From an uncultured Oscillospiraceae bacterium (GTDB taxonomy: Bacteria; Bacillota; Clostridia; Oscillospirales; Oscillospiraceae), in contig CANPXZ010000004.1 in NCBI GenBank assembly GCA_947587485.1, positions 1 to 41,673 of the forward strand: a DNA stretch of 41,673 bases, in the 5' to 3' direction. Below the pieces are notes generated by a model. The model made no database searches. It worked only from the letters and a program-made list of their open reading frames with translations, and had not been told where the DNA came from. Both the position numbers and the translations under genes were made by a program. Of this stretch, positions 551 through 38,776 are shown piece by piece (position 1 is the first letter of the stretch; each line of letters opens with the position of its first letter).

Positions 551-696
551 TAGACGAATAACTATAGCCCAATATGTAGTTTGCTTTTTGCCAATCGAGT
601 ACGACAAATCATCTATTTTGTTATACATGCGCTGTGAGCGTTGCCTCTGAAAGATCAGACGGCCCGATTCTGCGGCTGGGAAGGGACAGGTTAGCG

Positions 697-1683: not shown

Positions 1684-1698
1684 CGGAGGAGCGAGAAG

Positions 1699-19171: not shown

Positions 19172-20173
19172 ATGGAACAAACGGCAAAGATCTATGTGGC
19201 TGGACATACAGGGTTGTTTGGTTCAGCGCTTGTTCGCGCACTGGAGAAAAGAGGATTTGCAAATATAGTTACGCGCACCCATGCCGATCTTGATTTGACA
19301 GACGGCGCCGACACAATGGCCTTCTTTAAAACGGAAAGGCCGGATTATGTTTTTGTGGCAGCGGCTAAAGTGGGGGGCATTCAGGCAAATAATCTGTATA
19401 TGGCGGATTTTGCCATGGAGAATTTGCTTATTACCTGTAATGTGCTGCGCGCCGCCCACGAGGTGGGAGTGAAAAAACTTCTTTATCTTGGCTCTTCCTG
19501 TATTTACCCGAGAGAAGCAGATCAGCCAGTGAAGGAGGAGTATTTACTGACTGGTTTGCCGGAACCTACAAATGAAGGCTATGCCGTCGCAAAGATCGCA
19601 GGCGTGCGGATGTGCGATTACTATAAGCGGCAGTATAATGACGATTTTATAAGCTGCATACCTGCTAACGTATACGGGGAAAATGATAACTTTGATTCAC
19701 AGAACAGCCATGTGATACCGGCGCTGCTTCAGAGATTCCATCAGGCAAAGAAGGAACGGGCACCTTATATTGAGATATGGGGCACGGGCAGCGCAGAACG
19801 GGAATTCATGTATATTGATGATGGCGCCGATGCATGCCTCTATGTTATGGAGCACTATAATGGACCGAGGACTATCAATATTGGAATGGGCCGCACAACT
19901 TCGATCCGTGAACTTGCTGAGCAGATTCGCAAGGTAGTCGGATATGAAGGAGAGATCCGTTACGACACTACCAAACCGGATGGCATGCCGCGCAGGCTGC
20001 TGGAGAGCAGCAAGATCACAAATCTGGGCTGGGCGCCGCGTATCGAATTGGCGGACGGATTGGAGAAAACATACCGTTGGTATTTGAATAAGCTTGCGGA
20101 TAAAGAGGATCGCGTCAGAAAGGAGATCGACATGAATAAGGACGATAAGGTTTTTGTGGGGGGGTTGGAGTAG
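19172..20173 (+). CDS. GDP-L-fucose synthase-like SDR (epimerase/reductase)
   Basis: This SDR of the GDP-fucose synthase family (Fcl/ColC/MlghC-like) carries out C3/C5 epimerisation and/or C4 reduction of a GDP-4-keto-6-deoxy sugar. VAGHTGLFGSALV near residues 9-21 is the cofactor loop, GSSCIYPREA is the family signature, and YAVAK is the catalytic YxxxK. It is 333 residues as read. The true C-terminus is probably earlier, since the last 14 residues (MNKDDKVFVGGLE) are the start of the next gene, which has its own AAGGAG site. The frame then stops after a G7 tract. With one more G the two SDRs would be read as one continuous protein. Confidence 0.82.
   Translation: MEQTAKIYVAGHTGLFGSALVRALEKRGFANIVTRTHADLDLTDGADTMAFFKTERPDYVFVAAAKVGGIQANNLYMADFAMENLLITCNVLRAAHEVGVKKLLYLGSSCIYPREADQPVKEEYLLTGLPEPTNEGYAVAKIAGVRMCDYYKRQYNDDFISCIPANVYGENDNFDSQNSHVIPALLQRFHQAKKERAPYIEIWGTGSAEREFMYIDDGADACLYVMEHYNGPRTINIGMGRTTSIRELAEQIRKVVGYEGEIRYDTTKPDGMPRRLLESSKITNLGWAPRIELADGLEKTYRWYLNKLADKEDRVRKEIDMNKDDKVFVGGLE
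20158..20164 (+). repeat. Poly-G tract (G7) inside the cofactor loop of the second SDR
   Basis: Seven G encode part of the glycine-rich NAD(P) loop. With G7 the frame from the ATG at 20132 ends at TAG 20171-20173. With G8 or G11 it continues as ...VAGTAIVRLLQKNGYIN into the gene at 20188. G11 gives the same loop spacing as the paralogue at 19172. Confidence 0.8.
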
Positions 20174-20187
20174 CAGGTACTGCAATT

Positions 20188-21063
20188 GTGCGATTGTTAC
20201 AAAAAAACGGCTATATTAACATTTTGGCTCCAACTCATAGGGAGTTGGATCTGGGTTCCAGCGAACAGGTGAGCCGCTTCTTTCATGATAACAGACCGCA
20301 GTATGTGTTTTATACGGCGGCCAAGATGGGTGGCATCACTTACCGGAACGCACACCCCGCAGAGCTTTTGCTGGAGAATCTGCAAATGCAGGTCAACGTG
20401 ATCCAATATGCACATGAGTATGGCGTAAAGCGTTTGCAGTTTATGAGCAGTGACTTCATTTATCCAGAGAAGACAGCAGACGGCACATTGCGGGAGGAAG
20501 ACTTTTTGAACGGTCTTCCCAGCAGAAGAGATTTTCCATACAGTTTGGCAAAGATCGTTGGGGTAAAGTTGTGTGACTATTATCGTGAAGAATATGGCGA
20601 CAGTTTTTTTACAGTCGTACCTTGTGCGTTTTTTGGTATAGACTCGTCATTTGATGTTGAACGGGCAAATGTGGTGGCGTCATTGATGAGACGAATGCAC
20701 GAAGCTAAGGAATCTGGCACGCGGGAATTTGTCTTATGGGGCACAGGGAAACCGGTCAAGGAATTCCTATTCAGTGACGATTTGGCTTCAGCCTGTGTTC
20801 TGCTGATGGAGCAGGATGCATGTGAGGGGCTTTACAATATTGGCTCGGGTTCTGGCGGCATTTCCATTATGTCGCTGGCAGAGAGCATCAGAGAAGTAGT
20901 TGGGTATAAAGGCAGAATCGTCTGTGATCCATCTATGCCGGATGGCGTCCCCCGCAGAGTTCCGGACTCTACGCGCTTGCGGTCGCTGGGATGGAGACCG
21001 TTATACGATCTACAAACGGCACTCCAGTTGACGTACGATCATTTTATTAAGTCATGCGCGTGA
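20188..21063 (+). CDS. Second GDP-fucose synthase-like SDR, N-terminus cut off by a G7 frameshift
   Basis: As written the frame starts at GTG 20188 and yields 291 residues without the cofactor loop. The intended start is the ATG at 20132 (AAGGAG six bases before it) and the intended N-terminus MNKDDKVFVGG, which is out of frame by one base at the G7 tract. The remainder is a good SDR: TAAKMGGITYRN, SSDFIYPEK, YSLAK as YxxxK, and WGTGKPVKEFLFSDD. It parallels the gene at 19172 and probably makes a different stereoisomer. In the sequence as given the enzyme should be inactive. Confidence 0.78.
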   Translation: MRLLQKNGYINILAPTHRELDLGSSEQVSRFFHDNRPQYVFYTAAKMGGITYRNAHPAELLLENLQMQVNVIQYAHEYGVKRLQFMSSDFIYPEKTADGTLREEDFLNGLPSRRDFPYSLAKIVGVKLCDYYREEYGDSFFTVVPCAFFGIDSSFDVERANVVASLMRRMHEAKESGTREFVLWGTGKPVKEFLFSDDLASACVLLMEQDACEGLYNIGSGSGGISIMSLAESIREVVGYKGRIVCDPSMPDGVPRRVPDSTRLRSLGWRPLYDLQTALQLTYDHFIKSCA

Positions 21064-21103: not shown

Positions 21104-22327
21104 ATGAAAGTCTTGATTTTGGGCGCCGGCGCAGCTGGATTGACACTGGGGAACAGGCTGGTGGATAAAGGGATTGATTCATTTTTGATCCTTGAGAAGG
21201 AAACGGAACCGGGGGGCCTTTGCCGCTCCATAGAGTTTGAGGGCGAGCCGATCGATATTGGTGGACCGCACTATTTGGATCATCGTTCTGAAAAAGTGTT
21301 GAACTACTTGTTTGGCTTCATGCCCAAGGACGAGTGGAATCTCTATGAGAGGGACAGCAGAATACTGGTGAATGGGCAGCTCATCAACAGCCCGTTTGAA
21401 GCAAATCTATGGCAAATGGATCTGGATAGCCAAGTTGGCTATCTGGAGTCTATTTCTGCAGCCGGGTGCAACACGGGGGCCAATGCGCCGGAGAGCTTTA
21501 AGAACTGGATATATTGGAAACTCGGTAAACGTATAGCTGATGATTATATGATCCCTTATAACTCCAAACTCTATGGAGACAATCTGGACGCCATGGGAAC
21601 ATACTGGCTATATAAATTGCCAAGCGTCTCATTCCGGGAGACGCTGTTGAGTTGCCTGCAAAAGAGAGCGTATGGTACACAGCCATGCGTGGCAGAGTTT
21701 TATTATCCCAAGAAAACGGGCTTTGGAGAATTGTGGCGCAGAATGGCGGATCGGCTGGAGGGGCATATCTTCTGCAATCAGAGCGTCAGTTATATTGATA
21801 TGGATCGCAAGACCGTGAAGACGAAGACAGGCGAAACATATCAGGCGGATATTATTATTACCACGATCCCTTGGAGATGCTTTGATGAAATAGACGGGCT
21901 GCCAAAGGAACTGAAGGAAGGATTGAAAAGCCTGAAGTATGTGGCTATAGAGAACCGGTATATCAACGATGACGTGGATACGCAGGCGCAGTGGGTGTAT
22001 TTCCCGGATATGAAACTGCCCTACCATAGAGCGACTATCCGTAAAAATGTTTGGCCGACTATGCATGGCATGATAATTGAGATCAATCAAAATAGAGTGA
22101 AGCTCATACCGGATGATATGCCGTATAACTATAAGTTTGCTAATGAGTATGCCTATCCGGTCAATACGATTGGCAAGCCGGAGCTTATGAAATCTGTGCT
22201 GGCATATGCGGGGCAAAAACAAGTATATGGTCTTGGCAGGTGGGGAGAGCATCAGCACCACAATTCTGATGTGGTCGTTGAATTGGCAATGGATTTTGTG
22301 GATAAAGTGGCGGAGAAGATCATATGA
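21104..22327 (+). CDS. FAD-dependent mutase/oxidoreductase, UDP-galactopyranose mutase-like
   Basis: This is a 407-residue flavoprotein. LILGAGAAGLTLGNRL gives the Rossmann FAD loop GxGxxG at 7-12, LILEKETEPGGLCRS binds the adenosine part, and a C-terminal GLGRWGEHQHHNSD block closes the FAD site. The order resembles UDP-galactopyranose mutase and amine-oxidase relatives, but it differs from the true glf at 37592. It could convert a pyranose to a furanose form of one of the local nucleotide sugars; this is a guess from family and place. The start at 21104 follows GGAGGG, and its stop overlaps the next start as ATGA. Confidence 0.72.
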   Translation: MKVLILGAGAAGLTLGNRLVDKGIDSFLILEKETEPGGLCRSIEFEGEPIDIGGPHYLDHRSEKVLNYLFGFMPKDEWNLYERDSRILVNGQLINSPFEANLWQMDLDSQVGYLESISAAGCNTGANAPESFKNWIYWKLGKRIADDYMIPYNSKLYGDNLDAMGTYWLYKLPSVSFRETLLSCLQKRAYGTQPCVAEFYYPKKTGFGELWRRMADRLEGHIFCNQSVSYIDMDRKTVKTKTGETYQADIIITTIPWRCFDEIDGLPKELKEGLKSLKYVAIENRYINDDVDTQAQWVYFPDMKLPYHRATIRKNVWPTMHGMIIEINQNRVKLIPDDMPYNYKFANEYAYPVNTIGKPELMKSVLAYAGQKQVYGLGRWGEHQHHNSDVVVELAMDFVDKVAEKII

Positions 22328-24523: not shown

Positions 24524-25690
24524 ATGTTAAACATACCACTGATGAAAAATAACATCCTGCCTGAAGATATAGAGGCTCTCGTCACGTTTTTGCGTACAGA
24601 AGATCGGCTGACGAATGGACCGAAGGTCGTGGAATTTGAGAAAGCGTGGAGTGAATGGCTGGGTGTGAAGCACAGTTTGTTCGTTAATTCCGGAGCTTCT
24701 GCGAATCTAATTACCATGGCGGTCATCCGGGATCTGTATGGCCCTGGCGAAGTCATCGTGCCGCCCATTACTTGGAGCAGCGATATAACCTCTGTTTTTG
24801 CCGCGGGATTGACGCCGGTGTTTGCTGATGTAAACGTGAGTAATATGGCCATGGACGAGGAAGAGATAATCTCGCATTTGAGTGAGAATACCCGTGCGGT
24901 GTTCTTGACCCATGTGCTGGGTTTCAATGGCCTGTCACAGCGGCTCTTGGAAGAGCTGAAGGCACGGAATATCCCTCTGATCGAGGATGTATGCGAGTCC
25001 CATGGCGCGAGTATGGGAGGAAAGAAGTGCGGCACCTTTGGCTTGGCGTCTAATTTCTCTTTTTACTATGCACATCATATGAGCACGATTGAAGGCGGTA
25101 TGATCTGCACGGATGACGATGGGTTTTATCAAATGTGCCGAATGTATCGCAGCCATGGTATGGTGCGGGAATTGACGGATGAAAATATGAAACGCGAATA
25201 TGCGGAGAAGCATCCGGATCTCCGACCGGAGTTTCTGTTTGCGGTACCCGGATATAATATGCGTAGTACAGAACTGAACGCTGTGATGGGGCTTAGCCAG
25301 TTGCCCCGCTTGGATGCAAACAATGCACGCCGAGTGGAAAATTTGAAGCTTTTCATCAGTCATTTGGATCCGGAGAAATACTTTACAGATTTTGCGATGG
25401 AGGGCGCCGTCAATTATGCGTTCGTGGTTTTGCTGTGTCATCCCAGTGAGGAGAAGTTCCAAGCGTTGACAGATATGCTGCGTGCCGAGAATGTGGAATT
25501 CAGAAGAGGGACGGCAGGTGGTGGAAACATGGCCAGGCAGCCATTTGTGCGTCAGAGAATGCCAGGGTTTAACCCCGCTTCGCTCAAAAATGCAGATATC
25601 ATCCATTTTTATGGGCTTTATACCGGAAACTATCCGACGTTGGAAAAAGAGAAAATATTGGGGCTTTGTGAGTGCCTCAACAGTCTATAA
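24524..25690 (+). CDS. ColD-like PLP-dependent 3-dehydratase (DegT/DnrJ/EryC1 family)
   Basis: This 388-residue DegT-family protein has FSFYYAHHMSTIEGG near residues 178-191, where the Schiff-base lysine of aminotransferases is replaced by histidine (H184). That substitution marks GDP-4-keto-6-deoxymannose 3-dehydratase (ColD) and related 3-deoxygenating enzymes, which use PLP plus glutamate to remove the C3 hydroxyl. Length also fits. With the 4,6-dehydratase-like gene at 26709 the product would be a GDP-3,6-dideoxy sugar. Given two heptose pathways nearby, a 3,6-dideoxyheptose is an attractive possibility. ATG 24524 was chosen for its GGAGGAG site. Confidence 0.8.
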   Translation: MLNIPLMKNNILPEDIEALVTFLRTEDRLTNGPKVVEFEKAWSEWLGVKHSLFVNSGASANLITMAVIRDLYGPGEVIVPPITWSSDITSVFAAGLTPVFADVNVSNMAMDEEEIISHLSENTRAVFLTHVLGFNGLSQRLLEELKARNIPLIEDVCESHGASMGGKKCGTFGLASNFSFYYAHHMSTIEGGMICTDDDGFYQMCRMYRSHGMVRELTDENMKREYAEKHPDLRPEFLFAVPGYNMRSTELNAVMGLSQLPRLDANNARRVENLKLFISHLDPEKYFTDFAMEGAVNYAFVVLLCHPSEEKFQALTDMLRAENVEFRRGTAGGGNMARQPFVRQRMPGFNPASLKNADIIHFYGLYTGNYPTLEKEKILGLCECLNSL

Positions 25691-25712
25691 ATCGAGAGGT
25701 GCCTGGAGAAAG

Positions 25713-26687
25713 ATGCAAGTGAGTGCTGGTTTGGAAAACAGAAGGATTTTGGTCACTGGGGGAGCAGGCTTTGTTGGCACGAATGTGATTAGACGCCTCG
25801 CAGCAGAGAAAGCGACAGTGACGGGAACCTATCATAAGCATATGCCTCGCTTTCCAGTGGAAGGAGTAGAATATGTACAGGCCGATCTGACGCAAAAGGA
25901 GGATTGTCTCCGCGTGACAGCTGGAAAGGATGCAGTTGTGTTGACGGCGGCCTTTGTCGCGGGCGCTCAGGGTATGCTGGCAAAGCCTATGGGATTGGTC
26001 ACTGATACAGTCATTATGAATCTCCGCATGCTGGAATCGGCTTATGAAAACGGCGTGAAGAAGTGCATCTATATCAGCAGCGGCATGGTCTATCCGTTTT
26101 CTAAGGAACCGTTGACCGAAGATAAGGGCTATATAGGCGATCCCTTTGAAAAGTATTTTACTGGAGGGTGGAGCCGGCGTTTTGTAGAGATCGTATGCAG
26201 GATGTATGCGGAGAAGTTGCGCGCTATGAATATAACGGTTCTACGTATTGATAATCTGTATGGTCCCTGTGATAAATTTGAGCACGCGAAATCTCATGTT
26301 ATGGCGTCTCTGATTCGCAAGGCTGTTGAGCGGATGGATCCTTTTGAGGTATGGGGAGACGGCAAAGATTATAAAGACTTCATTTATGTGGAAGATCTAG
26401 CAGAAGGTATCGTCCTTGCGTTGAAAAAGGTGAGTGGATTTAACATCTACAACCTGGCATCCGGACGGAATGTAACGATCAATGACGCATTGAAGATCAT
26501 CCTCCGTTGTGCAGATTATGAAGACGCAAAGATCGTCTATAATGCGGACATGCCCACGATGATCCCATATAAAGTTCTATCAGTGGAGAAGGCACACAGA
26601 GAACTGGGGTTTGAGGCACGAACTTCATTGGAGGAAGGAATACAAAAAACGATTGATTGGTACCGGGAGCATCCGGCTTTAGACTGA
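25713..26687 (+). CDS. Extended SDR with altered YxxxK catalytic motif
   Basis: This 324-residue NAD-binding protein (ILVTGGAGFVGTNVIRRL) has SSGMVYPFSKEPL like GDP-fucose synthases and dehydratases. Where the catalytic Y-x-x-x-K should stand, it reads G-G-W-S-R (in FTGGWSRRFVEI), so both the tyrosine and the lysine appear replaced. Either the enzyme uses another residue, or it has become non-catalytic or structural. It lies between the ColD-like and the 4,6-dehydratase-like genes and would be expected to be the C4 reductase or C5 epimerase of that route. Start ATG at 25713, 22 bases after the preceding stop. Confidence 0.75.
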   Translation: MQVSAGLENRRILVTGGAGFVGTNVIRRLAAEKATVTGTYHKHMPRFPVEGVEYVQADLTQKEDCLRVTAGKDAVVLTAAFVAGAQGMLAKPMGLVTDTVIMNLRMLESAYENGVKKCIYISSGMVYPFSKEPLTEDKGYIGDPFEKYFTGGWSRRFVEIVCRMYAEKLRAMNITVLRIDNLYGPCDKFEHAKSHVMASLIRKAVERMDPFEVWGDGKDYKDFIYVEDLAEGIVLALKKVSGFNIYNLASGRNVTINDALKIILRCADYEDAKIVYNADMPTMIPYKVLSVEKAHRELGFEARTSLEEGIQKTIDWYREHPALD

Positions 26688-26708
26688 TATTTAGAAAGGT
26701 TGATCGAT

Positions 26709-27731
26709 ATGGCAACAAGAGCACTTATAACAGGTATAACGGGTATGGTCGGATCACATCTGGCGGACTTCCTGTTGGAAAAAACGAATTGGGAGGTATA
26801 TGGGGTCTGCCGATGGAGAAGCCCTATAGATAACGTATCTCACCTCATTGAACGTGTGAATCAAAAGGACAGGATCTATTTTGAATATGCTGATTTGAAT
26901 GATGCCGTCTCGCTTATCCATGTGATGGAAAAGGTCAAACCAGATTACATTTTTCATCTGGCTGCACAAAGCTATCCTTTGACTAGCTTTGATTCTCCCT
27001 TAGATACGCTGAACACGAATATTTTGGGCACATGCCGCTTGCTGGAGGCAGTCCGTGTTGCGGGTCTAGATCCGACTATCCATGTCTGCGCATCCTCTGA
27101 GGTTTTTGGAAAGATCCCACCGGAAAAGAAGCCGGAGACGGGCATTCACGAGGACTGCCCATTCCATCCGGCATCTCCTTATGCAATCTCCAAAGTGGGG
27201 ACAGATCTGTTGGGACGGTATTATGCAGAGGCATATGGGCTAAAAGTCATGACGACTCGTATGTTCACGCATACAGGGCCTCGCCGTGGAGATGTGTTCC
27301 ATGAGTCTACTTTTGCTAAGCAGATTGCTATGATTGAGAAAAGACTGATCGAACCTGTAGTCAAAGTGGGGAATCTCAAATCCTTGCGAACCTACGCGGA
27401 TGTTCGGGATGCGGTGAGAGCGTATTATATGCTGGTTACGGTCAATCCAATTCCCGGGGAGTATTATAATATCGGAGGCAGCTATACTTGTACGGTGGGT
27501 GACACGCTCAATACGTTGCTTTCTTTCTCTCCCATGGGACAGAGCATCCGGATCGAGGTCGATCCGGAACGGCTGCGTCCCATCGATGCGGATCTGCAGG
27601 TACCGGACTGCACTAAGTTCAAAAAACATGCCGGCTGGGAACCAGAAATCCCTTACGAAAAGACGATGCTAGATCTTCTGGATTACTGGCGTGAGCGTAT
27701 TAACAGGGGAGAACAGTTCCTGACAAGATAA
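26709..27731 (+). CDS. GDP-mannose / GDP-heptose 4,6-dehydratase-like SDR
   Basis: This 340-residue SDR follows the GDP-mannose 4,6-dehydratase pattern: ALITGITGMVGSHLADFL, DYIFHLAAQSYPLTSFDSP, SPYAISK as YxxxK, and TRMFTHTGPRRGDVFHES. The close homologues DmhA (Campylobacter, Yersinia) act on GDP-D-glycero-alpha-D-manno-heptose. With a heptose kinase and isomerase immediately downstream, the heptose substrate is favoured, but GDP-mannose is not excluded. The ATG at 26709 has AGAAAGG upstream. Confidence 0.8.
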   Translation: MATRALITGITGMVGSHLADFLLEKTNWEVYGVCRWRSPIDNVSHLIERVNQKDRIYFEYADLNDAVSLIHVMEKVKPDYIFHLAAQSYPLTSFDSPLDTLNTNILGTCRLLEAVRVAGLDPTIHVCASSEVFGKIPPEKKPETGIHEDCPFHPASPYAISKVGTDLLGRYYAEAYGLKVMTTRMFTHTGPRRGDVFHESTFAKQIAMIEKRLIEPVVKVGNLKSLRTYADVRDAVRAYYMLVTVNPIPGEYYNIGGSYTCTVGDTLNTLLSFSPMGQSIRIEVDPERLRPIDADLQVPDCTKFKKHAGWEPEIPYEKTMLDLLDYWRERINRGEQFLTR

Positions 27732-27771
27732 CGAATTCCGCAAAAGAAGAGATATAGAGAGGAAAACACCC

Positions 27772-28785
27772 ATGATCATTACCCAGACGCCCTTCCGGGT
27801 CTCGTTCTTCGGTGGAGGAACAGACTTTCCGGCATTTTATGAAAAATATGGCGGACAGGTTTTGTCTACCAGCATCAATAAGTACTGCTATATCACGGTG
27901 CGTCATCTCCCGCCGTTTTTTGAGTATTCAAACAGCGTAATGTATTCTCAGATAGAGCGAGTAAAAAATATTGCTGATATTGAACATCCGGCGGTAAGGG
28001 AAGCTATGAAATTCTTGGATATGCATGAACTATCCATTATTTATGATGCAGATCTTCCGGCTCGGACAGGGTTGGGAACAAGCAGTTCTTTTGCTGTTGG
28101 CCTGTTGCTGGCTTTTCATTCTTTGAAAGGAAAGTATGCAGACAAAAAGCGTCTGGCGGATGAGGCAATTTATTTGGAACGCGCACTGTGTAATGAGAGC
28201 GGTGGCCTTCAGGATCAGATTGCAGTTGCATACGGGGGACTTAATAAGATCATCTTTAATTCCAGCGGCTATAGAGTGCAGCCGGTGGTGGTAAATGATG
28301 AAAATAAGAAAGCGTTGGACGAAAATCTGATGCTGTTCTTTACGGGCATTTCCAGGTATTCATTCTCTATTCAAGCAGAGCATGAGAGAAATTTGGAGGT
28401 AAAGAACCGGCAGCTTCTCCAAATGAAGGATCTGGTAGATGAGGCGGAAATGGCGCTGGTGGAGGGAAGAGTAGATGATTTTGGCAGCCTGTTAGAGCAG
28501 GAATGGCAGTTGAAGCGGGAGATTAATGGCAGTGTAACGAATCCTGCGATAGATAGCTATTATGCCCGGGCCAGGAAGGCAGGCGCTCTAGGAGGAAAAC
28601 TTCTTGGGGCAGGCGGTGGAGGTTTTCTTCTGCTTTATGCGAAGAAAGAGAAGCAAGATTCGGTTCGTGAAGCTCTTTCTGAATTGCTGGAGATTCCGTT
28701 CGGATTTGAGACCGGAGGCGCTAAAGTCTTGTACTATATGCCGGAGAGCTATGTCCTGCCTTGGGAGAGGGAGGCAAAAGGATGA
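27772..28785 (+). CDS. hddA: Second heptose 7-phosphate kinase (GHMP family)
   Basis: This 337-residue GHMP kinase has the same opening as the gene at 697 (MIITQTPFRVSFFGGGTDF), GLGTSSSFAVGLLLAF as the ATP loop and KLLGAGGGGFLLLY as motif 3. It is too diverged from the first copy to be a recent duplicate and its base composition is more AT-rich. It has a good GAGAGGAAA ribosome region and overlaps the next gene as ATGA. No second guanylyltransferase is seen here, so the fused hddC-gmhB at 2634 may serve both sets. Confidence 0.87.
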   Translation: MIITQTPFRVSFFGGGTDFPAFYEKYGGQVLSTSINKYCYITVRHLPPFFEYSNSVMYSQIERVKNIADIEHPAVREAMKFLDMHELSIIYDADLPARTGLGTSSSFAVGLLLAFHSLKGKYADKKRLADEAIYLERALCNESGGLQDQIAVAYGGLNKIIFNSSGYRVQPVVVNDENKKALDENLMLFFTGISRYSFSIQAEHERNLEVKNRQLLQMKDLVDEAEMALVEGRVDDFGSLLEQEWQLKREINGSVTNPAIDSYYARARKAGALGGKLLGAGGGGFLLLYAKKEKQDSVREALSELLEIPFGFETGGAKVLYYMPESYVLPWEREAKG

Positions 28786-29420
28786 AGCAAAGTACTGAAT
28801 ATATTGTCCAAAAATATATCGAGAGGCACAGCTTCGTAGAGGAACTGAAGGAAAAGCTATGCGAAGCCGTGGAGATTTTAGAGACCTCCTATCAGAAGGG
28901 CGGCAAGCTGCTAATTTGTGGAAACGGCGGAAGCTGTGCGGATGCTAGTCATATTGTTGGTGAACTGATGAAACCGTTTCGGATCTCGCGTCCGCTGGAT
29001 CGGAGAACGCGGTCAGCTTTGTTGAAACAAGGTGTGCCTTGTCTGGCAGAGATGTTAAAGGGGGCATTGCCGGCAGTCGACCTGGGGGCACAGGCGGCGC
29101 TCATCACAGCACAGCTCAATGATGTGGGAGCAGACTTTATCTATGCGCAGCAGGTCATCGGATATGGCTGCCCGGGTGATGTACTTTTAGGCATCAGCAC
29201 TTCGGGGAACTCAAAGAACATATTGTATGCTGGCGTTGCAGCTAATGCTAAGGGAATGAAGACCATTGGACTGACTGGAAAGTCCGGGGGTAAAATGGGG
29301 AAGTTTTTTGATGTGCTCCTCTGTGCGCAGGCTGAAGACACAGAAGATATTCAGGATATGCATAGCGTTATCTATCACCTGCTGTGTGCGGCAGTAGAAA
29401 ATGAGTTTTGGGGAGAATAA
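28782..29420 (+). CDS. gmhA: Second sedoheptulose 7-phosphate isomerase (SIS domain)
   Basis: This is a 212-residue SIS protein with CGNGGSCADASHIVGEL (phosphate loop), ISTSGNSKNI, TGKSGGKMG and a terminal DIQDMHSVIYHLL with the catalytic-type histidine. It has an insertion (about residues 68-105, including KPFRISRPLDRRTRS) that the first gmhA lacks. It is coupled to hddA by a four-base overlap. Together they form a second heptose supply set beside the ColD-like and 4,6-dehydratase-like genes. Confidence 0.85.
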   Translation: MKQSTEYIVQKYIERHSFVEELKEKLCEAVEILETSYQKGGKLLICGNGGSCADASHIVGELMKPFRISRPLDRRTRSALLKQGVPCLAEMLKGALPAVDLGAQAALITAQLNDVGADFIYAQQVIGYGCPGDVLLGISTSGNSKNILYAGVAANAKGMKTIGLTGKSGGKMGKFFDVLLCAQAEDTEDIQDMHSVIYHLLCAAVENEFWGE

Positions 29421-31148: not shown

Positions 31149-32096
31149 ATGAAGATAAGCGTAACAATCCCAAGCTATAATGAGGAAAAAAGTGTGCGGC
31201 TGATGTATGAGCGGCTGACGAGGGTTTTTGCAGAGAAACTTCCTCAGTATGATTATGAAATCATCTTTGTGGACGACTGTTCCCCGGATAATACGCGGGA
31301 AGAGATCCGAAAGCTTTGCGCCGAGGACAAGCGTGTAAAAGGTGTCTTTAACGCGAGAAATTTTGGCTTTAACCGCAACGTGTTCGCTTCCTTGCTCTAC
31401 GGCGACGGTGATGCCACCTTCATGCTCTTCGGCGATTTGCAGGATCCGCCGGAGATGCTGCCGCAATTTGTGGCTGAGTGGGAGAAGGGCCATAAGGTGG
31501 TCGTGGGGCAGAAGACAAAGAGCGCTGAGCCATGGCTGATGTATACCCTGCGCACCTTATATTACAACGTGATCGGCCGACTGGCGGATTCCGGGCAGAT
31601 CCAACATTTCAACGGCTATGGGTTGTATGACCGGGTGTTTATCAATGCCATGCGGCTGATAGATGACCCGAATCCCTATCTGAAAGGCCTTGTCTCTGAG
31701 TTCGGGATGAACATCAAGGTGCTCCAGTATGAACAGGCGGAAAGCATGCGGGGCAAATCCGGCTTCAACTTTATGAAGTATTATGATGTAGCGATGCTTG
31801 GTATCACATCCTATACCAAGATCCTCATGCGGATTGCCACGTTTTTGGGGGCGGGGTTGGGGATAATCAGCGCATTCCTGGCCTTGTTTGTACTTATCAG
31901 CAAATTGATGAACTGGAATACCTACCCCTACGGTACGGCAGCAATTCTCATTGGCGTTTTCGCGATCGGCGCGGTGCAGCTGTTTTTCATGGGGATCCTG
32001 GGCGAGTACATATTGAGCATCAATACGCGGACGATGCGCCGGCCGCTGGTGGTAGTGGGTGAAAAGATTAACTTTGAAGAGGACAAGCAGGAATGA
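31149..32096 (+). CDS. GtrB/ArnC-like GT2 with two C-terminal TMs
   Basis: This 315-residue protein has a GT2 domain (MKISVTIPSYNEEKSVR, FVDDCSPDNTREEIR, NARNFGFNRNVF, LFGDLQDPPEML) and two membrane helices near residues 230-255 and 265-290, ending LGEYILSINTRT. This is the standard build of bactoprenol-phosphate sugar synthases such as GtrB and ArnC. It should make a polyprenyl-phosphate sugar for a GT-C enzyme, most likely the one just upstream. ATG 31149 was chosen for GGAGTGGAGG. Its end overlaps the next start as ATGA. Confidence 0.85.
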   Translation: MKISVTIPSYNEEKSVRLMYERLTRVFAEKLPQYDYEIIFVDDCSPDNTREEIRKLCAEDKRVKGVFNARNFGFNRNVFASLLYGDGDATFMLFGDLQDPPEMLPQFVAEWEKGHKVVVGQKTKSAEPWLMYTLRTLYYNVIGRLADSGQIQHFNGYGLYDRVFINAMRLIDDPNPYLKGLVSEFGMNIKVLQYEQAESMRGKSGFNFMKYYDVAMLGITSYTKILMRIATFLGAGLGIISAFLALFVLISKLMNWNTYPYGTAAILIGVFAIGAVQLFFMGILGEYILSINTRTMRRPLVVVGEKINFEEDKQE

Positions 32097-33487
32097 GCGT
32101 AAAGGACACATTGCTGTCGATCGCCAAGAGCTGGTGTGAGCCGGAGGGAAAGGTGCACAGCACAGCGGAGATATTGGAGTGGGTGCGGGAGCGGAACGAA
32201 AATACGTATGTCTCCATCCGGCCCATATCTCTGGAGCAGTGCGAGCCATGGTACTATGACAGGCAGAGCGGGTGCATCCAGAACCGGAACCTGAGCTTTT
32301 TCCAGATCACGGGGATGCGACAGGAGCGGCAGGACGGCACGGTGCAGACCCAGCCCATCATCCTGCAGGAGGAGATCGGCTTTCTGGGGGTGCTGTGCCG
32401 GGAGATCGACGGCGTGATGCATTTTCTCATGCAGGCGAAGATCGAGCCGGGAAACGTGAACTGCGTGCAGATCTCCCCGACGATCCAGGCGACGCTGAGC
32501 AACTTCACCCGCAAGCACGGGGGGGTATCTCCTCCTTACCTGGAGTACTTCCTGAATTCCAATAAGTATGAGGTAGTGGTGGATCAGATCCAGTCGGAGC
32601 AGTCGGCGCGGTTTTACAAAAAGCGCAACCGGAACATCATGATCCGTGTGGAGGAAGAGGTGCCGGTACTGCCCAGCCACTGCTGGATGACGCTGGGGCA
32701 GATCAAGCGTCTGATGCGCCAGGACAACCTGGTGAACATGGACACGCGCACGGTGCTGTCCTGCATCCCGTACGCCAAGCTGCAGCTCACCGAGCGGGAG
32801 CTGCTGGATCTGTCGGAGCAGTTTCACGATATGCCGCTGTTCCGCTCCCTGTTTATCCGCACGGGTGAGGACGCTCTGCCCCGGATGTACCAGCGGCTGA
32901 ACAACTACAAAATGTTCGAATCGTTCAAGCAGGATCTGGTGCCGCTGCACGAGCTGACAAACTGGGAGATGCGGGGCAGCGAGTTGGTGTGCAAAGAGCC
33001 ATATCCCTTCCGGGTGCTGTTTTGCGATATCTCCATAGAGGGCCGGGAGGTGCGGCACTGGACGCAGCCGTTGTTTGCTGCCAACGGCATAGCCCTGTTC
33101 GGCCTGTTGTGCTGTGAGATCGACGGGGTGCTGAATTTCCTCGTCCAGTTCAAGCAGGAGATCGGCGTGTTCGACACGGTGGAGCTGGGCCCGACGGTGC
33201 AGCAGGAGGCTGGCACGGCGCCGGCGGAGGACGACATCCTGCGGCTGTTCCGGGAGCGTCTGGAGCGGGGCGAAGGGGTCATGTTCGACCACCTGATGAG
33301 CGAGGAGGGCGGCCGGTTTTACCATGAGCAGAACCGGAACGTGATCCTGCGGGTGAAGGAGGAGGAAATGCCGGTACTGCCGGAGGGGTATTTCTGGCTG
33401 GATCACCGTTCGCTCAACGAGATGCTGCAGATCAACAACATACTGAACATTCAGCTGCGGAATCTGCTGTCACTGTTGGAGGCGTGA
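32093..33487 (+). CDS. NDP-hexose 2,3-dehydratase
   Basis: This 464-residue protein belongs to the NDP-hexose 2,3-dehydratase family, which removes the C2 hydroxyl of dTDP-4-keto-6-deoxyglucose on the way to 2,6-dideoxy sugars. It shows the typical internal duplication: EIDGVMHFLMQAK and ISPTIQ in the first half match EIDGVLNFLVQFK and LGPTVQ in the second, each followed by an R-F-Y-x-x-x-N-R-N block. A G7 tract at 32519-32525 (in KHGGVSPP) lies within the frame, which is intact. It is coupled to the preceding GT2 by ATGA. The gene at 33489 supplies the next step. Confidence 0.87.
   Translation: MSVKDTLLSIAKSWCEPEGKVHSTAEILEWVRERNENTYVSIRPISLEQCEPWYYDRQSGCIQNRNLSFFQITGMRQERQDGTVQTQPIILQEEIGFLGVLCREIDGVMHFLMQAKIEPGNVNCVQISPTIQATLSNFTRKHGGVSPPYLEYFLNSNKYEVVVDQIQSEQSARFYKKRNRNIMIRVEEEVPVLPSHCWMTLGQIKRLMRQDNLVNMDTRTVLSCIPYAKLQLTERELLDLSEQFHDMPLFRSLFIRTGEDALPRMYQRLNNYKMFESFKQDLVPLHELTNWEMRGSELVCKEPYPFRVLFCDISIEGREVRHWTQPLFAANGIALFGLLCCEIDGVLNFLVQFKQEIGVFDTVELGPTVQQEAGTAPAEDDILRLFRERLERGEGVMFDHLMSEEGGRFYHEQNRNVILRVKEEEMPVLPEGYFWLDHRSLNEMLQINNILNIQLRNLLSLLEA
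32519..32525 (+). repeat. Poly-G tract (G7) within the intact 2,3-dehydratase frame
   Basis: Seven G inside codons for KHGGVS near residue 145. The reading frame is continuous at this length. A change of one base would truncate the enzyme, so this tract could also switch. Confidence 0.6.
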
Positions 33488-33488
33488 G

Positions 33489-34457
33489 ATGAGAATCGGA
33501 ATACTGGGGACATCGGATATAGCGTGCCGGCGATTTCTGCCGGCGCTGAAAAAGTGTGCAAATCTGACATACGCGGGCGTGGCCAGCCGGACGCCGGAGA
33601 AGGGAAAGCCGTTTCAGGAGCAGTACGGCGGGCAGATCTACGACGGGTATGACGCGCTTTTGGCGGACGAGAGCATCGGGGCGGTATATGTGCCGCTGCC
33701 GCCGGCGCTCCACTGTCAGTGGGCAAAAAAGGCCCTGGAGGCGGGAAAGCATGTGCTGTTGGAAAAGCCCTTTGCCACCAGTCCGGAGCAGACGGAGACT
33801 CTTCTGACGCTGGCGGAGGAGAAGAACCTTGCGGTGCATGAAAACTATATGTTCCTTTACCACCGGCAGCTGGCGCTGATAAAGCGCTATATCGAATCCG
33901 GCGAGCTGGGGCAGCTGCGGCTGCTGCGGATGGCGTTCGGCTTTCCCAAGCGGGAGGGGAACGACTTTCGCTATAACCGGGAGCTGGGCGGCGGCGCGCT
34001 GCTGGACTGCGGCGGGTATCCGGTACGGCTGGCCCAGGAACTGCTGGGCGGCAGCGCCCGGGTGACCCAGGGCCGGCTTGTGGAGCCGGAGGGGTATGAG
34101 GTAGATCTTTACGGCAGCGCGGTGCTGGAAAACAACGAGGGGCTGTGCGCCCAGGTGTCCTTTGGTATGGACAACGCCTACCAGTGTCAGCTGGAGGTGT
34201 GGGGAAGCAAGGCCACGCTGATCGCCCCGCGGATCTTCACGGCGGGGGCTGACCTTGCCCCGCGCCTGATCTTGCGCGGTGCCGGGGGCGAGACCGTGAC
34301 GGATGTCGAGCCGGACGACCAGTTCCTGCACTCTATAGAGCGGTTCATGCAGAGTGTGGAGGACGAAAACGTCCGGAAGCAGATGCGCCAGGCCATCCGC
34401 CGGCAGAGCCAGGCGGTGGACGCGATCCGGCAAGGAGGAGAGAGAAAATGCGAGTGA
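33489..34457 (+). CDS. Gfo/Idh/MocA-family 3-ketoreductase
   Basis: This 322-residue NAD(P) oxidoreductase starts MRIGILGTSDIACRRFLPAL with the cofactor loop. It has EKPFATSPEQ holding the family EKP lysine and LGGGALLDCGGYP in the substrate part. In deoxysugar clusters such enzymes reduce the 3-keto group formed after 2,3-dehydration (for example KijD10-type). It directly follows the dehydratase (one base apart) and overlaps the next gene by 10 bases. This supports a dTDP-2,6-dideoxyhexose route. Confidence 0.85.
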   Translation: MRIGILGTSDIACRRFLPALKKCANLTYAGVASRTPEKGKPFQEQYGGQIYDGYDALLADESIGAVYVPLPPALHCQWAKKALEAGKHVLLEKPFATSPEQTETLLTLAEEKNLAVHENYMFLYHRQLALIKRYIESGELGQLRLLRMAFGFPKREGNDFRYNRELGGGALLDCGGYPVRLAQELLGGSARVTQGRLVEPEGYEVDLYGSAVLENNEGLCAQVSFGMDNAYQCQLEVWGSKATLIAPRIFTAGADLAPRLILRGAGGETVTDVEPDDQFLHSIERFMQSVEDENVRKQMRQAIRRQSQAVDAIRQGGERKCE

Positions 34458-35005
34458 CAGAGCTGGCCCTTCCAGGGGTGAAGATCATAGAGCCCACCTA
34501 TTTTGAGGACTACCGGGGCTATTACTGCGAAACCTATTCCAAGCGGACGCTGGCGGAATACGGGATCGACTGCGAGTTTGTCCAGGACAACCATTTCCTG
34601 TGCCTGGAGCGGGGCACGATCCGGGGCATCCACTTTCAGAATGATCCCCATGCTCAGGCAAAGCTGATCCGGTGCACCCGGGGCAGTCTGCTGGATATTG
34701 CGGTGGATCTGCGGAAGGGCTCGCCCACCTATTTGCAGTGGTGCTCTGTGATTTTGAGCGCAGAGAACCGAAAGCAGCTGTTCATTCCCCGGGGATTCGG
34801 GCATGTGTGTATGTCGCTGGTGGACAACACGGAGGGGCAGTATAAGGTGGACAACTTGTACGCGCCGGCGTATGACAGGGCGATAGCGTGGAACGATTCG
34901 CAGATCGCCATAGCCTGGCCGGACATCAAGGCGGTGGTGTCCCCAAAGGACGTGAAGGCGCCCACGCTGGCGGAGAGCGACGTGAACTTCCGGTACGCGG
35001 GGTGA
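34448..35005 (+). CDS. RmlC-like dTDP-4-keto sugar epimerase (first copy)
   Basis: This 185-residue cupin of the RmlC family has RGIHFQNDPHAQAKLI with the catalytic-type histidine, DIAVDLRKGSPTY and FIPRGFGHVCMSL. Family members epimerise C3 and/or C5 of 4-keto-6-deoxy sugars. A second copy at 36058 shares most of these blocks. Each is followed by an SDR, so the two pairs probably arose by duplication of a cassette. The start overlaps the previous gene by 10 bases and follows AGGAGAGA. Confidence 0.83.
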   Translation: MRVTELALPGVKIIEPTYFEDYRGYYCETYSKRTLAEYGIDCEFVQDNHFLCLERGTIRGIHFQNDPHAQAKLIRCTRGSLLDIAVDLRKGSPTYLQWCSVILSAENRKQLFIPRGFGHVCMSLVDNTEGQYKVDNLYAPAYDRAIAWNDSQIAIAWPDIKAVVSPKDVKAPTLAESDVNFRYAG

Positions 35006-35010
35006 GCGGG

Positions 35011-35991
35011 ATGAAAAAAGCGGTAGTGACCGGCGCCAGCGGTTTTATCGGTAAGGCGCTGGTGAGAGAGCTTCTGAATCAGGGATGGACGGTCTGGGCG
35101 GTGGTGCGCAGCCCGAATAAGCTGGCGGATCTGGCCCAAGAGCGGCTCATGTGCGTCCGCGCGGAGCTGACAGAGTACGCAGCGCTGCCGGAGCGGATCT
35201 GTGAGCGTGGCTTTGACGCGTTTTTCCATCTGGCATGGGACGGGACGTTTGGCGTCAGCTTCCGGGACTACCATCGCCAGCTGCACAACGCTGCCTATGC
35301 GGCGGACGCGCTGACGGCGGCGGTCGAGTTGGACGCGAAGAGGTTCATTTTCACCGGCACCATCGTGGAACTGGAAGCGAAGCACTATATGATAACGGAC
35401 GGCGGTGCGCCGAGAACGTCCTGTATTTATGGTACGGCCAAAGCGGCGGCGGAGATGATCTGCCGTACGGTGGCCTATGAAAAGCGTCTGCCTATGAATA
35501 CGGCCATATTGGCCAGCGTATACGGGGACGGCGACGAGTCCGGCATGATCCAGAACGTGCTGATTCGTGCCCTGCAAAAGGGCGAGAGCCCCAAGCTGGT
35601 GAGCGGGGAAAACCTGTACGACTGGATCTATGTGGAGGATGTGGTGCGAGGTCTGATCTCCATCGCGGAGCAGGGGGCGGTGGACAAGACGTATTATGTC
35701 GGCCACCGGCAGTTGCAGACGTTCGAGTCTCTTGTGACCCGGACAAGGGATGTGGTGGCGCCGGAGGTTCCCCTGGCCTTTGGGACGCTGGAGGATCGGA
35801 CGGTGACGGACTACACGCTGATAGACCGGGAGGCCCTGTATCGGGACACCGGATTTGAATGTCAGGCCGATTTTGACGAGAGTATCAGAAAAACGGCGAA
35901 TTGGCTCAAAGCCAGAGATAAGGAGGAACACGAGAATATGAATGACAGAAGTACTGTGGTGAATAACCCCACGGGGGGGGGTAAGTTGTAA
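35011..35991 (+). CDS. SDR 4-ketoreductase-like (first copy), reads into a poly-G leader
   Basis: This extended SDR has VVTGASGFIGKALVREL, FHLAWDGTFG, YGTAKAAAEM as YxxxK, and DWIYVEDVVRG. It likely reduces the 4-keto group of the dideoxy sugar. Homology to the paralogue at 36621 ends around WLKARDKEE. The last 17 or so residues come from a second translation unit that begins at ATG 35938 in the same frame and includes a G9 tract. The real end of the enzyme is therefore uncertain. It follows the epimerase by five bases. Confidence 0.8.
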   Translation: MKKAVVTGASGFIGKALVRELLNQGWTVWAVVRSPNKLADLAQERLMCVRAELTEYAALPERICERGFDAFFHLAWDGTFGVSFRDYHRQLHNAAYAADALTAAVELDAKRFIFTGTIVELEAKHYMITDGGAPRTSCIYGTAKAAAEMICRTVAYEKRLPMNTAILASVYGDGDESGMIQNVLIRALQKGESPKLVSGENLYDWIYVEDVVRGLISIAEQGAVDKTYYVGHRQLQTFESLVTRTRDVVAPEVPLAFGTLEDRTVTDYTLIDREALYRDTGFECQADFDESIRKTANWLKARDKEEHENMNDRSTVVNNPTGGGKL

Positions 35992-36058
35992 ACTTACGTT
36001 CCTGCCCGGCGTCCCGGCATATGACCATGCCGGCCTCCATATGGGAGGTGCGGCTTGA
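35938..36058 (+). promoter_or_regulatory. Poly-G leader frame with three hairpins, frame-dependent coupling to the next gene
   Basis: ATG 35938 has AAGGAGG eleven bases before it and starts MNDRSTVVNNPTGG. With G9 at 35973-35981 it stops at 35989-35991, and with G10 it stops at the TAA directly after the tract. With G8 it runs to a TGA at 36056-36058 that overlaps the ATG at 36058 (TGATG). Three perfect hairpins follow the tract: 35981-35987 with 35991-35997, 36014-36020 with 36027-36033, and 36034-36038 (CCTCC) with 36044-36048 (GGAGG). The last hides the ribosome site of the epimerase. Ribosomes in the G8 frame would open it. This is an inferred switch. Confidence 0.6.
35973..35981 (+). repeat. 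Poly-G tract (G9) upstream of the second RmlC-like gene
   Basis: Nine G at codons 12-15 of the leader frame from ATG 35938. The tract is followed by TAAGTT and a GTAAGTT/AACTTAC hairpin. It has the same kind of placement as the tracts at 11745 and 20158. Confidence 0.8.
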
Positions 36059-36624
36059 TGAAGATCACAGAGATGGCCCTTCCGGGCGCGAAGGTCATCG
36101 AACCGACGTATTTTGACGACAATCGGGGCTATAGCACAGAGGCTTATAACGATCGCACCCTGAGAGAGTATGGCATCGACACGAAATTCGTAGTGGACTA
36201 CGAGTGCTACAATCAGGAAGCGGGTACCATTCGTGGTATCCACTTCCAGAATAACCCCCATCCTCAGGTGAAGCTGGTTCGGGTGCTCCACGGCGCGGTT
36301 ATGGACTATATCGTGGATTTGCGGAGGGATTCTCCCACCTTCAAAAAATGGGTCTGCCAGGAGGTATCCGCGAAGAACCGTAAACAGCTCTATCTTCCCA
36401 ACTGCTTTGGTCATACCTATGTGACGTTGGAACCGGGAACCGTGGTGCTGTATAAATTTGACGATTATTACGACCGCCAGTTCGTACGGGCGATCCGCTG
36501 GAACGATCCGCAGATCGGCATCGACTGGCCCATCAGCAATCCGATCCTGTCCGCTGCGGACAGTCAGGCGCCCTTTCTCCGGGACAGCGACGTGAATTTC
36601 ACGGTGGAAGGGAACCCGGTATGA
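36058..36624 (+). CDS. RmlC-like dTDP-4-keto sugar epimerase (second copy)
   Basis: This 188-residue cupin is parallel to the protein at 34448: ALPGAKVIEPTYFDD, RGIHFQNNPHPQVKL, DYIVDLRRDSPTF and LPNCFGHTYVTLEPG. Both copies keep the histidine and aspartate positions expected for activity, so this pair may generate a second stereoisomer. The ATG at 36058 is preceded by GGAGG, which can pair with CCTCC just before it. Its stop overlaps the next start. Confidence 0.83.
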   Translation: MKITEMALPGAKVIEPTYFDDNRGYSTEAYNDRTLREYGIDTKFVVDYECYNQEAGTIRGIHFQNNPHPQVKLVRVLHGAVMDYIVDLRRDSPTFKKWVCQEVSAKNRKQLYLPNCFGHTYVTLEPGTVVLYKFDDYYDRQFVRAIRWNDPQIGIDWPISNPILSAADSQAPFLRDSDVNFTVEGNPV

Positions 36625-37532
36625 AGAGAGTGATCGTGACCGGGGCCAGTGGATTTATCGGACAGCATCTGGTGCGGGCGCTTCTGGACGAGGGCGTTGA
36701 GGTATGGGCGGTTCTGCGCAATGAAAAAGCGCTGGAGGATCTGAAGCGGGATACGCTGCATATCGTGACGGCGGAGTTTGACGAGTACGCGTCTTTGAGT
36801 GAGAAGATCCCGGAGCGCGGATTTGACGCCTGTTTCCATTTGGCCTGGAGCGGAACCTGGGGCAAGCCCTTCGCGGACTATACGCTCCAACTGCAAAACG
36901 CGAAATATGCTGCGGATACCGTAGTGCAGGCCGCAGCACTGGGCTGCGGGCGGTTCGTTATGGTGAGTACGATCGTGCAGTTAGAGGCACAGAGATATAT
37001 GCTCTCTGACGAGGGCACGCCGAGGATCTCCTGCATCTATGGCACGGCCAAGAGCGCGGCGACTATGCTTTGTCGGATCGAGTCGGAGCATCTGGGGATC
37101 GAATGGAACACGGCAGTTCTGTCCAGCGTCTACGGGGTCGGCGACCGCTCGAAGATGATCGAGAACGTTCTGATCGAGAGTTTCATGGCCGGGCAGCGGC
37201 CCAGACTTGTAGAGGGGAACAATCATTATGACTGCACATATGTGGACGATATCGCAAGGGGCCTGATCACGATCGTGGAGAAGGGCCGCGGAGGTCGCAC
37301 CTATTATGTGGGACATCGCCAGCTACAGACGTTCCGGGAGATCGTGGGTCAGATCCGGGATGTGCTGGCGCCGGATATGGAGCTCGTTTTTGGGGAGTAT
37401 CCGGACACGACGCCCATCGATTACTCTCTTTTGGATGTGGGCGCGCTTTATAAGGACACGGGCTTTGAACCGTCGGTTTCTCTGCGGGATGGCATACAGG
37501 CAACGGCGAGGTGGATGCTTCAGCAGAAGTGA
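36621..37532 (+). CDS. SDR 4-ketoreductase-like (second copy)
   Basis: This 303-residue extended SDR is paralogous to the one at 35011 across its whole length: VTGASGFIGQHLVRAL, FHLAWSGTWG, YGTAKSAATM and YVDDIARGLI. It keeps a complete YxxxK. Together with the epimerase at 36058 it forms a second epimerase-reductase pair. It is coupled to that gene by an ATGA overlap. A 59-base gap follows before glf. Confidence 0.82.
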   Translation: MKRVIVTGASGFIGQHLVRALLDEGVEVWAVLRNEKALEDLKRDTLHIVTAEFDEYASLSEKIPERGFDACFHLAWSGTWGKPFADYTLQLQNAKYAADTVVQAAALGCGRFVMVSTIVQLEAQRYMLSDEGTPRISCIYGTAKSAATMLCRIESEHLGIEWNTAVLSSVYGVGDRSKMIENVLIESFMAGQRPRLVEGNNHYDCTYVDDIARGLITIVEKGRGGRTYYVGHRQLQTFREIVGQIRDVLAPDMELVFGEYPDTTPIDYSLLDVGALYKDTGFEPSVSLRDGIQATARWMLQQK

Positions 37533-37591
37533 CGGAGTAACATAGAAAATGGTTGTCAGAGCGATTCTTTAAGTTAGGTAAGGGTAGATAA

Positions 37592-38776
37592 ATGGAAAAG
37601 ATCATCGTAGTAGGCAGCGGGTTTTCGGGGGCGATATTGGCCCGGAAAATCGCGGAGGAGCTGGAGCGCAAGGTTCTGATCGTGGAGAAGCGTCCGCACA
37701 TCGGCGGCAATATGTACGACGAGGTGGACGAGCACGGGATCCTGGTTCAGAAGTACGGGCCCCATTTTCTCAACACAAACAATTACCGGGTGATCGCCTT
37801 TCTCAAGCAGTACGCGGCGCTCTTCCCCCACGAGACAAAGCTGCTCAGCTATATCGACGGACAGTACGTGCGGCTGCCGTTCAATTTCAAGACGGTGCAG
37901 CAGCTGGTGGGGCCGGAGCGGTCGGAGGGACTGCTGAAGAAGCTGCGGACGGCGTTCGCGGGCCGGGATCGGGTGCCGATCCTGGAGCTGGTGGATCACG
38001 CCGATCCGGACGTGAGCGCATACGGAAACCTCCTGTTTGAGAAGGCGTACCGGACGTATACGTCCAAGCAGTGGGGCATCCAGCCGGAGGAGATCGACAA
38101 GTATGTTCTCGACCGGGTACCCATGGCCATGAACTACGATGAACGGTATCTGAACAAGGACTTTCAGTACCTGCCCATAGAGGGCTTCACAAAGCTGTTC
38201 GAGCGCATGCTGGATCACCCGAACATACGGGTGGAGCTGAACACGGACGCGCTGGAGAAGCTGACGATGGGCGAGGGGACGGTGTCCTACGGGGGAGAGC
38301 CGGTGCAGTGCCTGATCTGGACCGGCCCCATTGACGAGCTGTTCCATTACCGTTACGGCGCGCTGCCCTACCGGTCACTGGATATCCGTTACAGCTACGA
38401 GGACAAGCCCAGCATCCTGCCCAGCGAGATCATATCCTACCCCCAGGCGCCGGGGTATACGCGCAGCACGGAGTACAGGAAGATCATGTATGACGATGGC
38501 GGCGCCCGGGGCTCGGTGGTGGCCACGGAGTATCCGCTGGCCTATGACCCAAAGGCGGCGGTGGGGAACGTGCCCTACTACCCGGTGGTGACGAAGGCCA
38601 GCAGCGCCGTATACGAGCAGTACCTGGAGCAGGCGGCAGAGTACAGGAATCTCTTCCTGTGCGGGCGTCTGGCGGAATTCAAGTACTACAACATGGACAT
38701 CTGCATCGAGCACGCCCTGGCGTACTTTGAGAACGTGAGGGACTATCTGAAGAGAGATAAAGAGGAGAGCAAATGA
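37592..38776 (+). CDS. glf: UDP-galactopyranose mutase
   Basis: This 394-residue flavoenzyme should convert UDP-galactopyranose to UDP-galactofuranose. [15 protein letters not shown] is the FAD loop, [13 protein letters not shown] and [11 protein letters not shown] are strong Glf signatures, [12 protein letters not shown] follows, and AFNKGYT-type residues appear as [14 protein letters not shown]. The C-terminal [13 protein letters not shown] is typical. The ATG at 37592 is preceded by AAGGGTAGA. It implies a galactofuranose in the glycan. Its end overlaps rmlA as ATGA. Confidence 0.9.

Follow-up and report, generated by a model that had tools for sequence, protein, structure and literature searches.

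The question raised by the locus described here is which nucleotide sugar is made by a block of five genes at positions 24524–29420 of a contig from an uncultured Oscillospiraceae bacterium. The window, meaning the whole stretch of DNA that was analyzed, is the entire contig C4 (41,673 nucleotides) of a 2.5-Mb metagenome-assembled genome (MAG) that is 74% complete, and among named genomes the closest are MAGs of Oscillospiraceae and Lachnospiraceae from the rabbit gut. An initial annotation had placed a ColD-like 3-dehydratase, a 4,6-dehydratase of the GMD/DmhA type, hddA, and gmhA next to one another and had proposed a 3,6-dideoxyheptose carried on GDP as their product. This adjacency is confirmed on the plus strand, and the dehydratase tree together with the gene neighborhoods makes a GDP-3,6-dideoxyheptose by far the best reading of the product, which the block would quite likely make for a surface glycan. 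The observations comprise gene presence, family placement, catalytic residues, and neighborhood.

The block begins with a His-type DegT C3-dehydratase of 388 amino acids (24524–25690; Pfam DegT_DnrJ_EryC1), followed by a short-chain dehydrogenase/reductase (SDR) of the Fcl/GME kind without the usual catalytic Tyr (25683–26687), the GMD/DmhA-type 4,6-dehydratase (26709–27731), hddA2 for a GHMP heptose-7-phosphate kinase (27772–28785; top family NCBIfam HddA, top PDB match 3k85), and gmhA2 for a sedoheptulose-7-phosphate isomerase (28782–29420; top family TIGR00441, PDB GmhA 2xbl/2x3y). All five genes are complete and co-directional, and their near-abutting spacings (−8, +21, +40, and −4 bp, in order) look like those of one operon. 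The SDR between the two dehydratases, as well as the Fcl-like genes at 19172–21063, was absent from the list in the initial annotation.

The 4,6-dehydratase is of the DmhA type. In an IQ-TREE phylogeny of 50 proteins, it joins, together with 21 relatives from gut Bacillota, the crystallized Campylobacter jejuni GDP-heptose 4,6-dehydratase 7us5 (represented by residues 24–361 from the PDB search alignment) with a support of 100/98. The GMDs of the same genus fall outside this group, in a 100/100 clade of their own with E. coli GMD. Clustering with GMD, the placement that would tell against a heptose, was thus not seen. The PDB search likewise gave an E-value of 3e-112 for 7us5 versus 2e-44 for E. 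coli GMD; sequence identity is about 54% with 7us5 but 31% with E. coli GMD and 34% with the GMD of its own genome. The TIGR01472 GMD model scores it at 177 bits, below the curated cut-off of 415, versus 512 for the own-genome GMD. A GMD identity was ruled out by the tree, the PDB search, and this cut-off. The catalytic residues Ser129/Ser130-Glu131 and the motif SPYAISK align with both 7us5 and GMD. The enzyme shares the sequence clade and the catalytic residues of the DmhA/WcbK GDP-heptose 4,6-dehydratases. Among 60 columns that are invariant in 11 GMDs and different in 7us5, the window has the letter of 7us5 in 32, that of GMD in 10, and another in 18.

The C3-dehydratase shares the fold and the catalytic His of ColD while falling in a clade of its own, so the description as ColD-like holds for the former and not for the lineage. 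Its best PDB match is ColD (2gms), and the structural matches to its AlphaFold (AF2) model (pLDDT 92.6) are headed by ColD entries (Z 45.5), followed by E1 dehydrase (Z 43.8) and then aminotransferases. His184 stands where the lysine for pyridoxal phosphate would be and aligns with His188 of ColD, while ColD Asp159, Glu162, Ser183, Asn248, and Glu329 are all conserved in the alignment. An aminotransferase identity was ruled out by this His in place of Lys, and an RfbH/E1 identity by the absence of the iron–sulphur Cys region of that type, which is present in the RfbH-like protein L015 of the same genome. Membership in ColD was ruled out by the identity of 29% to E. coli O55 ColD and by a quick tree, in which an 82-row clade around the window enzyme is split from ColD by long branches (support of 100 and 99 in the Shimodaira–Hasegawa-like approximate likelihood ratio test, SH-aLRT). 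Directly after the conserved Glu (ColD Glu329), the clade has a specific loop, RRGTAGGGN, that is two residues longer than PIV-GN of ColD; one might guess that it widens the pocket to fit a longer sugar. The motif SFYYAHHM is also conserved, in part through the choice of loci, as it was among the patterns with which the 80 loci were collected. No further copy of the C3-dehydratase was found in 397 other genomes of a phylum sample, so the enzyme is rare there.

The neighborhoods were compared across 51 loci of the C3-dehydratase clade of at least 14 kb, which are related to one another, so that the Fisher values for the comparison are rough. hddA is found in 46 of them and at least one GDP-heptose gene in 47, a DmhA-type match in 24, and an FCL-type gene in 33; GMD is found in none and manC in one. 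By contrast, true ColD loci carry GMD and manC in four of four and a heptose kinase in none, with the control being four loci only (E. coli O55, G006 of the same genus, and two more genomes from the same class). The proposal of a 3,6-dideoxyheptose on GDP is supported by this contrast together with the DmhA clustering. G006 provides the hexose counterpart within the genus, with GMD–Fcl–ColD and ManC on one contig. The locus (L110, G006:C13, 7118–14885) holds GMD, Fcl, a true ColD (52% to ColD), and ManC, that is, a colitose-like route in Oscillospiraceae. In G062, of the same family, hddA–fcl–C3-dehydratase–DmhA–gmhA lie within one 4.5-kb contig.

In the window, DmhA and the His-type C3-dehydratase are neighbors, and the same is true of all 21 Bacillota loci examined, which shows that the arrangement is not due to chance. 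One cultured carrier of the pair is Clostridium porci WCA-389-WT-23D1 (L028). The two genes touch in 10 of these loci; in the other 11, they are separated by a gap of up to approximately 3.5 kb, usually with one to three genes that differ between loci and are mostly SDRs. These variable genes recall the C. jejuni serotypes, in which C4-reductases are swapped and the product isomer follows (PMC10440746, PMC10680097).

The same data bear on a hexose route, in which the C3-dehydratase would convert GDP-4-keto-6-deoxymannose from a true GMD into a colitose-like 3,6-dideoxyhexose, with DmhA and the hdd genes making an unrelated 6-deoxyheptose. A true GMD is indeed present in the source genome, G006 shows that the genus can carry such a route, and the heptose reductases and epimerases of C. 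jejuni accept mannose-based substrates (PMC7949155). However, this GMD lies on a separate contig (G000:C21) beside an RMD-like SDR, with no ColD adjoining, and the near absence of GMD and manC from the long clade loci, the hdd genes in most of them, and the direct contact of C3-dehydratase and DmhA in nearly half of the Bacillota loci make this route improbable. Moreover, manB, manC, and a second GMD-type 4,6-dehydratase were not found in the window.

The supply of GDP-heptose, i.e., gmhA, hddA, and hddC, is entirely encoded in the window. As the initial annotation held, the hddA–gmhA pair of the block is a second one. The first set, on the plus strand at 634–4537, consists of hddA1 for a heptose-7-phosphate kinase with GHMP kinase domains (634–1683; likely true start about 697), an hddC–gmhB fusion for a heptose-1-phosphate guanylyltransferase and heptose-1,7-bisphosphate 7-phosphatase with NTP_transferase and HAD domains (2634–3950), and gmhA1 for a sedoheptulose-7-phosphate isomerase, which matches a gmhA relative in G407 (3947–4537). 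The two copies share 44% identity for hddA and 32% for gmhA, and no second hddC–gmhB fusion was found elsewhere in the incomplete assembly of the source genome.

From these genes, we infer the substrates, reaction order, stereochemistry, and use in a surface glycan as follows. The DmhA-type enzyme would oxidize C4 and remove the C6 hydroxyl, yielding GDP-6-deoxy-4-keto-lyxo-heptose. The C3-dehydratase, using pyridoxamine phosphate (PMP) recharged by glutamate and having His184 instead of the lysine that aminotransferases require, would then strip off the hydroxyl at C3, yielding GDP-3,6-dideoxy-4-keto-threo-heptose. Finally, a Fcl/ColC-type enzyme would invert C5 and reduce C4 to a colitose-like L-xylo isomer, which is predicted to be the likeliest of several isomers; the SDR at 25683–26687, in the variable slot, is a possible unusual C4-reductase or epimerase and may yield another.

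The most likely enzyme for this last step is fcl1, a putative Fcl/ColC-type C5-epimerase/C4-reductase (19172–20173, plus strand; PDB GDP-fucose synthase 7ll6, E-value 5e-104) that is 38% identical to E. coli O55 ColC. Like ColC, it keeps the Ser, Cys, Tyr, Lys, and His of GDP-fucose synthase, and with this full residue set it could both epimerize C5 and reduce C4, as does the bifunctional reductase group r2 of C. jejuni (PMC10680097). The final codons of fcl1 run into the start of fcl2 (20134–21063, plus strand), a C4-reductase-like gene that keeps Ser, Tyr, and Lys and has lost the Cys/His dyad. The frame of fcl2 shifts inside a run of seven G near position 20160, through which its relatives L021–L023 read; the shift may reflect an assembly error, decay, or phase variation. 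In the SDR at 25683–26687, the Tyr of YxxxK is replaced, as it is in the SDRs beside the C3-dehydratase in L019, L026, L027, L033, L048, L064, L071, and L096 (pattern around GW[ST][KR]). Since Phe occupies the catalytic Tyr position in MlghC, a functional heptose C4-reductase (PMC7949155), the missing Tyr leaves a reductase role possible for this SDR. A protein that binds flavin adenine dinucleotide (FAD) and resembles UDP-galactopyranose mutase follows (21104–22327, plus strand) and is a possible pyranose/furanose mutase for GDP-heptose; it is closest to the mutases of the longer type of approximately 510 amino acids.

For this series of reactions, C. jejuni HS:5 and HS:11 are an established precedent, as they produce 3,6-dideoxyheptoses on GDP (PMC10440746). 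The window shares with them the gmhA, hddA, and hddC supply, the DmhA-type 4,6-dehydratase, the PMP-dependent C3-dehydratase, and a putative C4-reductase, represented in the window by candidates, whose type differs among close relatives. The C. jejuni C3-dehydratases, however, are 62–67% identical to E. coli/Yersinia ColD (PMC10440746), whereas the window enzyme is far more distant and falls in another clade. The C. jejuni C5-epimerase is of the cofactor-free RmlC type, whose likely replacement in the window is the Fcl-type enzyme; fcl1, with its intact Cys/His epimerase dyad, may take over this role, and the RmlC-like genes at 34448 and 36055 lie in a dTDP block. The window also differs in having hddC fused to gmhB and in its host, a Gram-positive gut anaerobe. 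With the colitose pathway of E. coli O55 (gmd, manB, manC, ColC, and ColD), the window has in common the ColD-like fold and His, the Fcl-type C5-epimerase/C4-reductase, and the GDP carrier; that pathway is a six-carbon GDP-mannose route with GMD and manC/manB, whereas the window has DmhA and hdd genes. The CDP-4-keto-6-deoxyglucose-3-dehydrase E1 (RfbH) shares the fold, the His for Lys, and the removal of the C3 hydroxyl with the window C3-dehydratase but acts on CDP sugars and requires an iron–sulphur centre and a reductase, the window enzyme having no extra Cys region.

Outside Bacillota, the string hddA–fcl–E1alpha–E1beta–C3-dehydratase is conserved across many phyla, mostly without a nearby 4,6-dehydratase (e.g., L057, 5977–11191; another locus of the E1 type is L037 of Nodosilinea nodulosa PCC 7104). 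Most clade loci from these other phyla lack DmhA in the vicinity yet carry hddA, frequently along with fcl and the E1 pair. E1alpha and E1beta constitute a thiamine pyrophosphate (TPP)-dependent pair (PF00676 and PF02779/PF02780), and a pair of the same type, AviB1/AviB2, was proposed to use pyruvate to attach an acetyl branch at C4 of avilamycin sugars (PMC4753412). By this precedent, a C4-branched 3-deoxyheptose is a possible product of the string. Tentatively, the clade may be seen as a heptose-dedicated family apart from ColD in many phyla, acting with DmhA in Bacillota to give 3,6-dideoxyheptoses and elsewhere with the AviB1/AviB2-like E1alpha/beta pair to give C4-branched 3-deoxy-GDP-heptoses, of which no description was found in the literature searched.

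This distribution also suggests that the window could make two heptoses, a 6-deoxyheptose from DmhA and fcl, with the C3-dehydratase separately yielding either a 3-deoxyheptose that retains its C6 hydroxyl or a C4-branched one, the more so as a C. jejuni C3-dehydratase also takes a 6-hydroxy 4-keto substrate in vitro (PMC10680097). Such a split is unlikely given that DmhA and the C3-dehydratase are neighbors in the Bacillota loci, that the E1 pair was not found in the window, and that nothing clearly resembling a Cj1427-type C4-dehydrogenase was identified. Decay or disuse of the block, with no dideoxyheptose produced, is very improbable: the shifted fcl2 frame and the missing Tyr of the SDR would fit it, but none of the five block genes is truncated, their catalytic residues are otherwise retained, MlghC works without the Tyr (PMC7949155), and relatives keep the C3-dehydratase–DmhA–hddA core at 76–88% identity.

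Some points weigh against the synthesis of a GDP-3,6-dideoxyheptose in the window. With its low identity to ColD and its position outside the ColD clade, the C3-dehydratase has its presumed substrate assigned from context. There are three last-step candidates, among which the SDR has no catalytic Tyr and fcl2 is frameshifted; the clade outside Bacillota often has no DmhA nearby and stands beside the E1-type TPP pair instead; and the contig edges truncate the cluster on both sides, the window being a whole contig of an incomplete MAG.

The product had also been called a very rare sugar; it is rare but not undescribed, as the C. jejuni pathway was solved in 2023 (PMC10440746). The chemistry is thus known from Campylobacter capsules, and what is new is the host group (Oscillospiraceae/Lachnospiraceae) and the C3-dehydratase lineage, which is distinct from ColD and extends across many phyla. 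The literature searched named no 3,6-dideoxyheptoses outside the C. jejuni work, and nothing was found on GDP-heptose in glycans of Clostridia. The gene set in gut Clostridia suggests that 3,6-dideoxyheptoses reach beyond the capsule of one pathogen, and the separate C3-dehydratase lineage suggests that heptose deoxygenation was acquired at least two times within the ColD/E1 fold. The clade offers a ready marker for undescribed heptose glycans in many phyla. With in vitro assays already established, the idea can be tested directly; the M−H masses published for C. jejuni go from 634.08 to 616.08 after the 4,6-dehydratase, 600.08 after the C3-dehydratase with PLP and glutamate, and 602.08 after the reductase with NADPH.

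Other genes in the window point to further sugars. A second deoxysugar block (32093–39648) contains an NDP-hexose 2,3-dehydratase (PF03559, E-value 1.5e-129), a Gfo/Idh reductase, two RmlC-like proteins, two SDRs, a GLF-type pyranose/furanose mutase, and RmlA, a set that seems to fit a dTDP-2,6-dideoxyhexose as the product, possibly in furanose form. Near the contig end, a 290-amino-acid fragment of an AMP-binding enzyme (40582–41454) is probably broken or cut. Elsewhere in the source genome, the RfbH/E1-type 3-dehydratase L015 (G000:C25:16147–17268) adjoins another nucleotide-sugar dehydratase-like SDR, and with these two the organism may also make a CDP-3,6-dideoxyhexose. A single chain of 1043 amino acids in the window (8569–11700) combines GT8, GT2, and methyltransferase domains.

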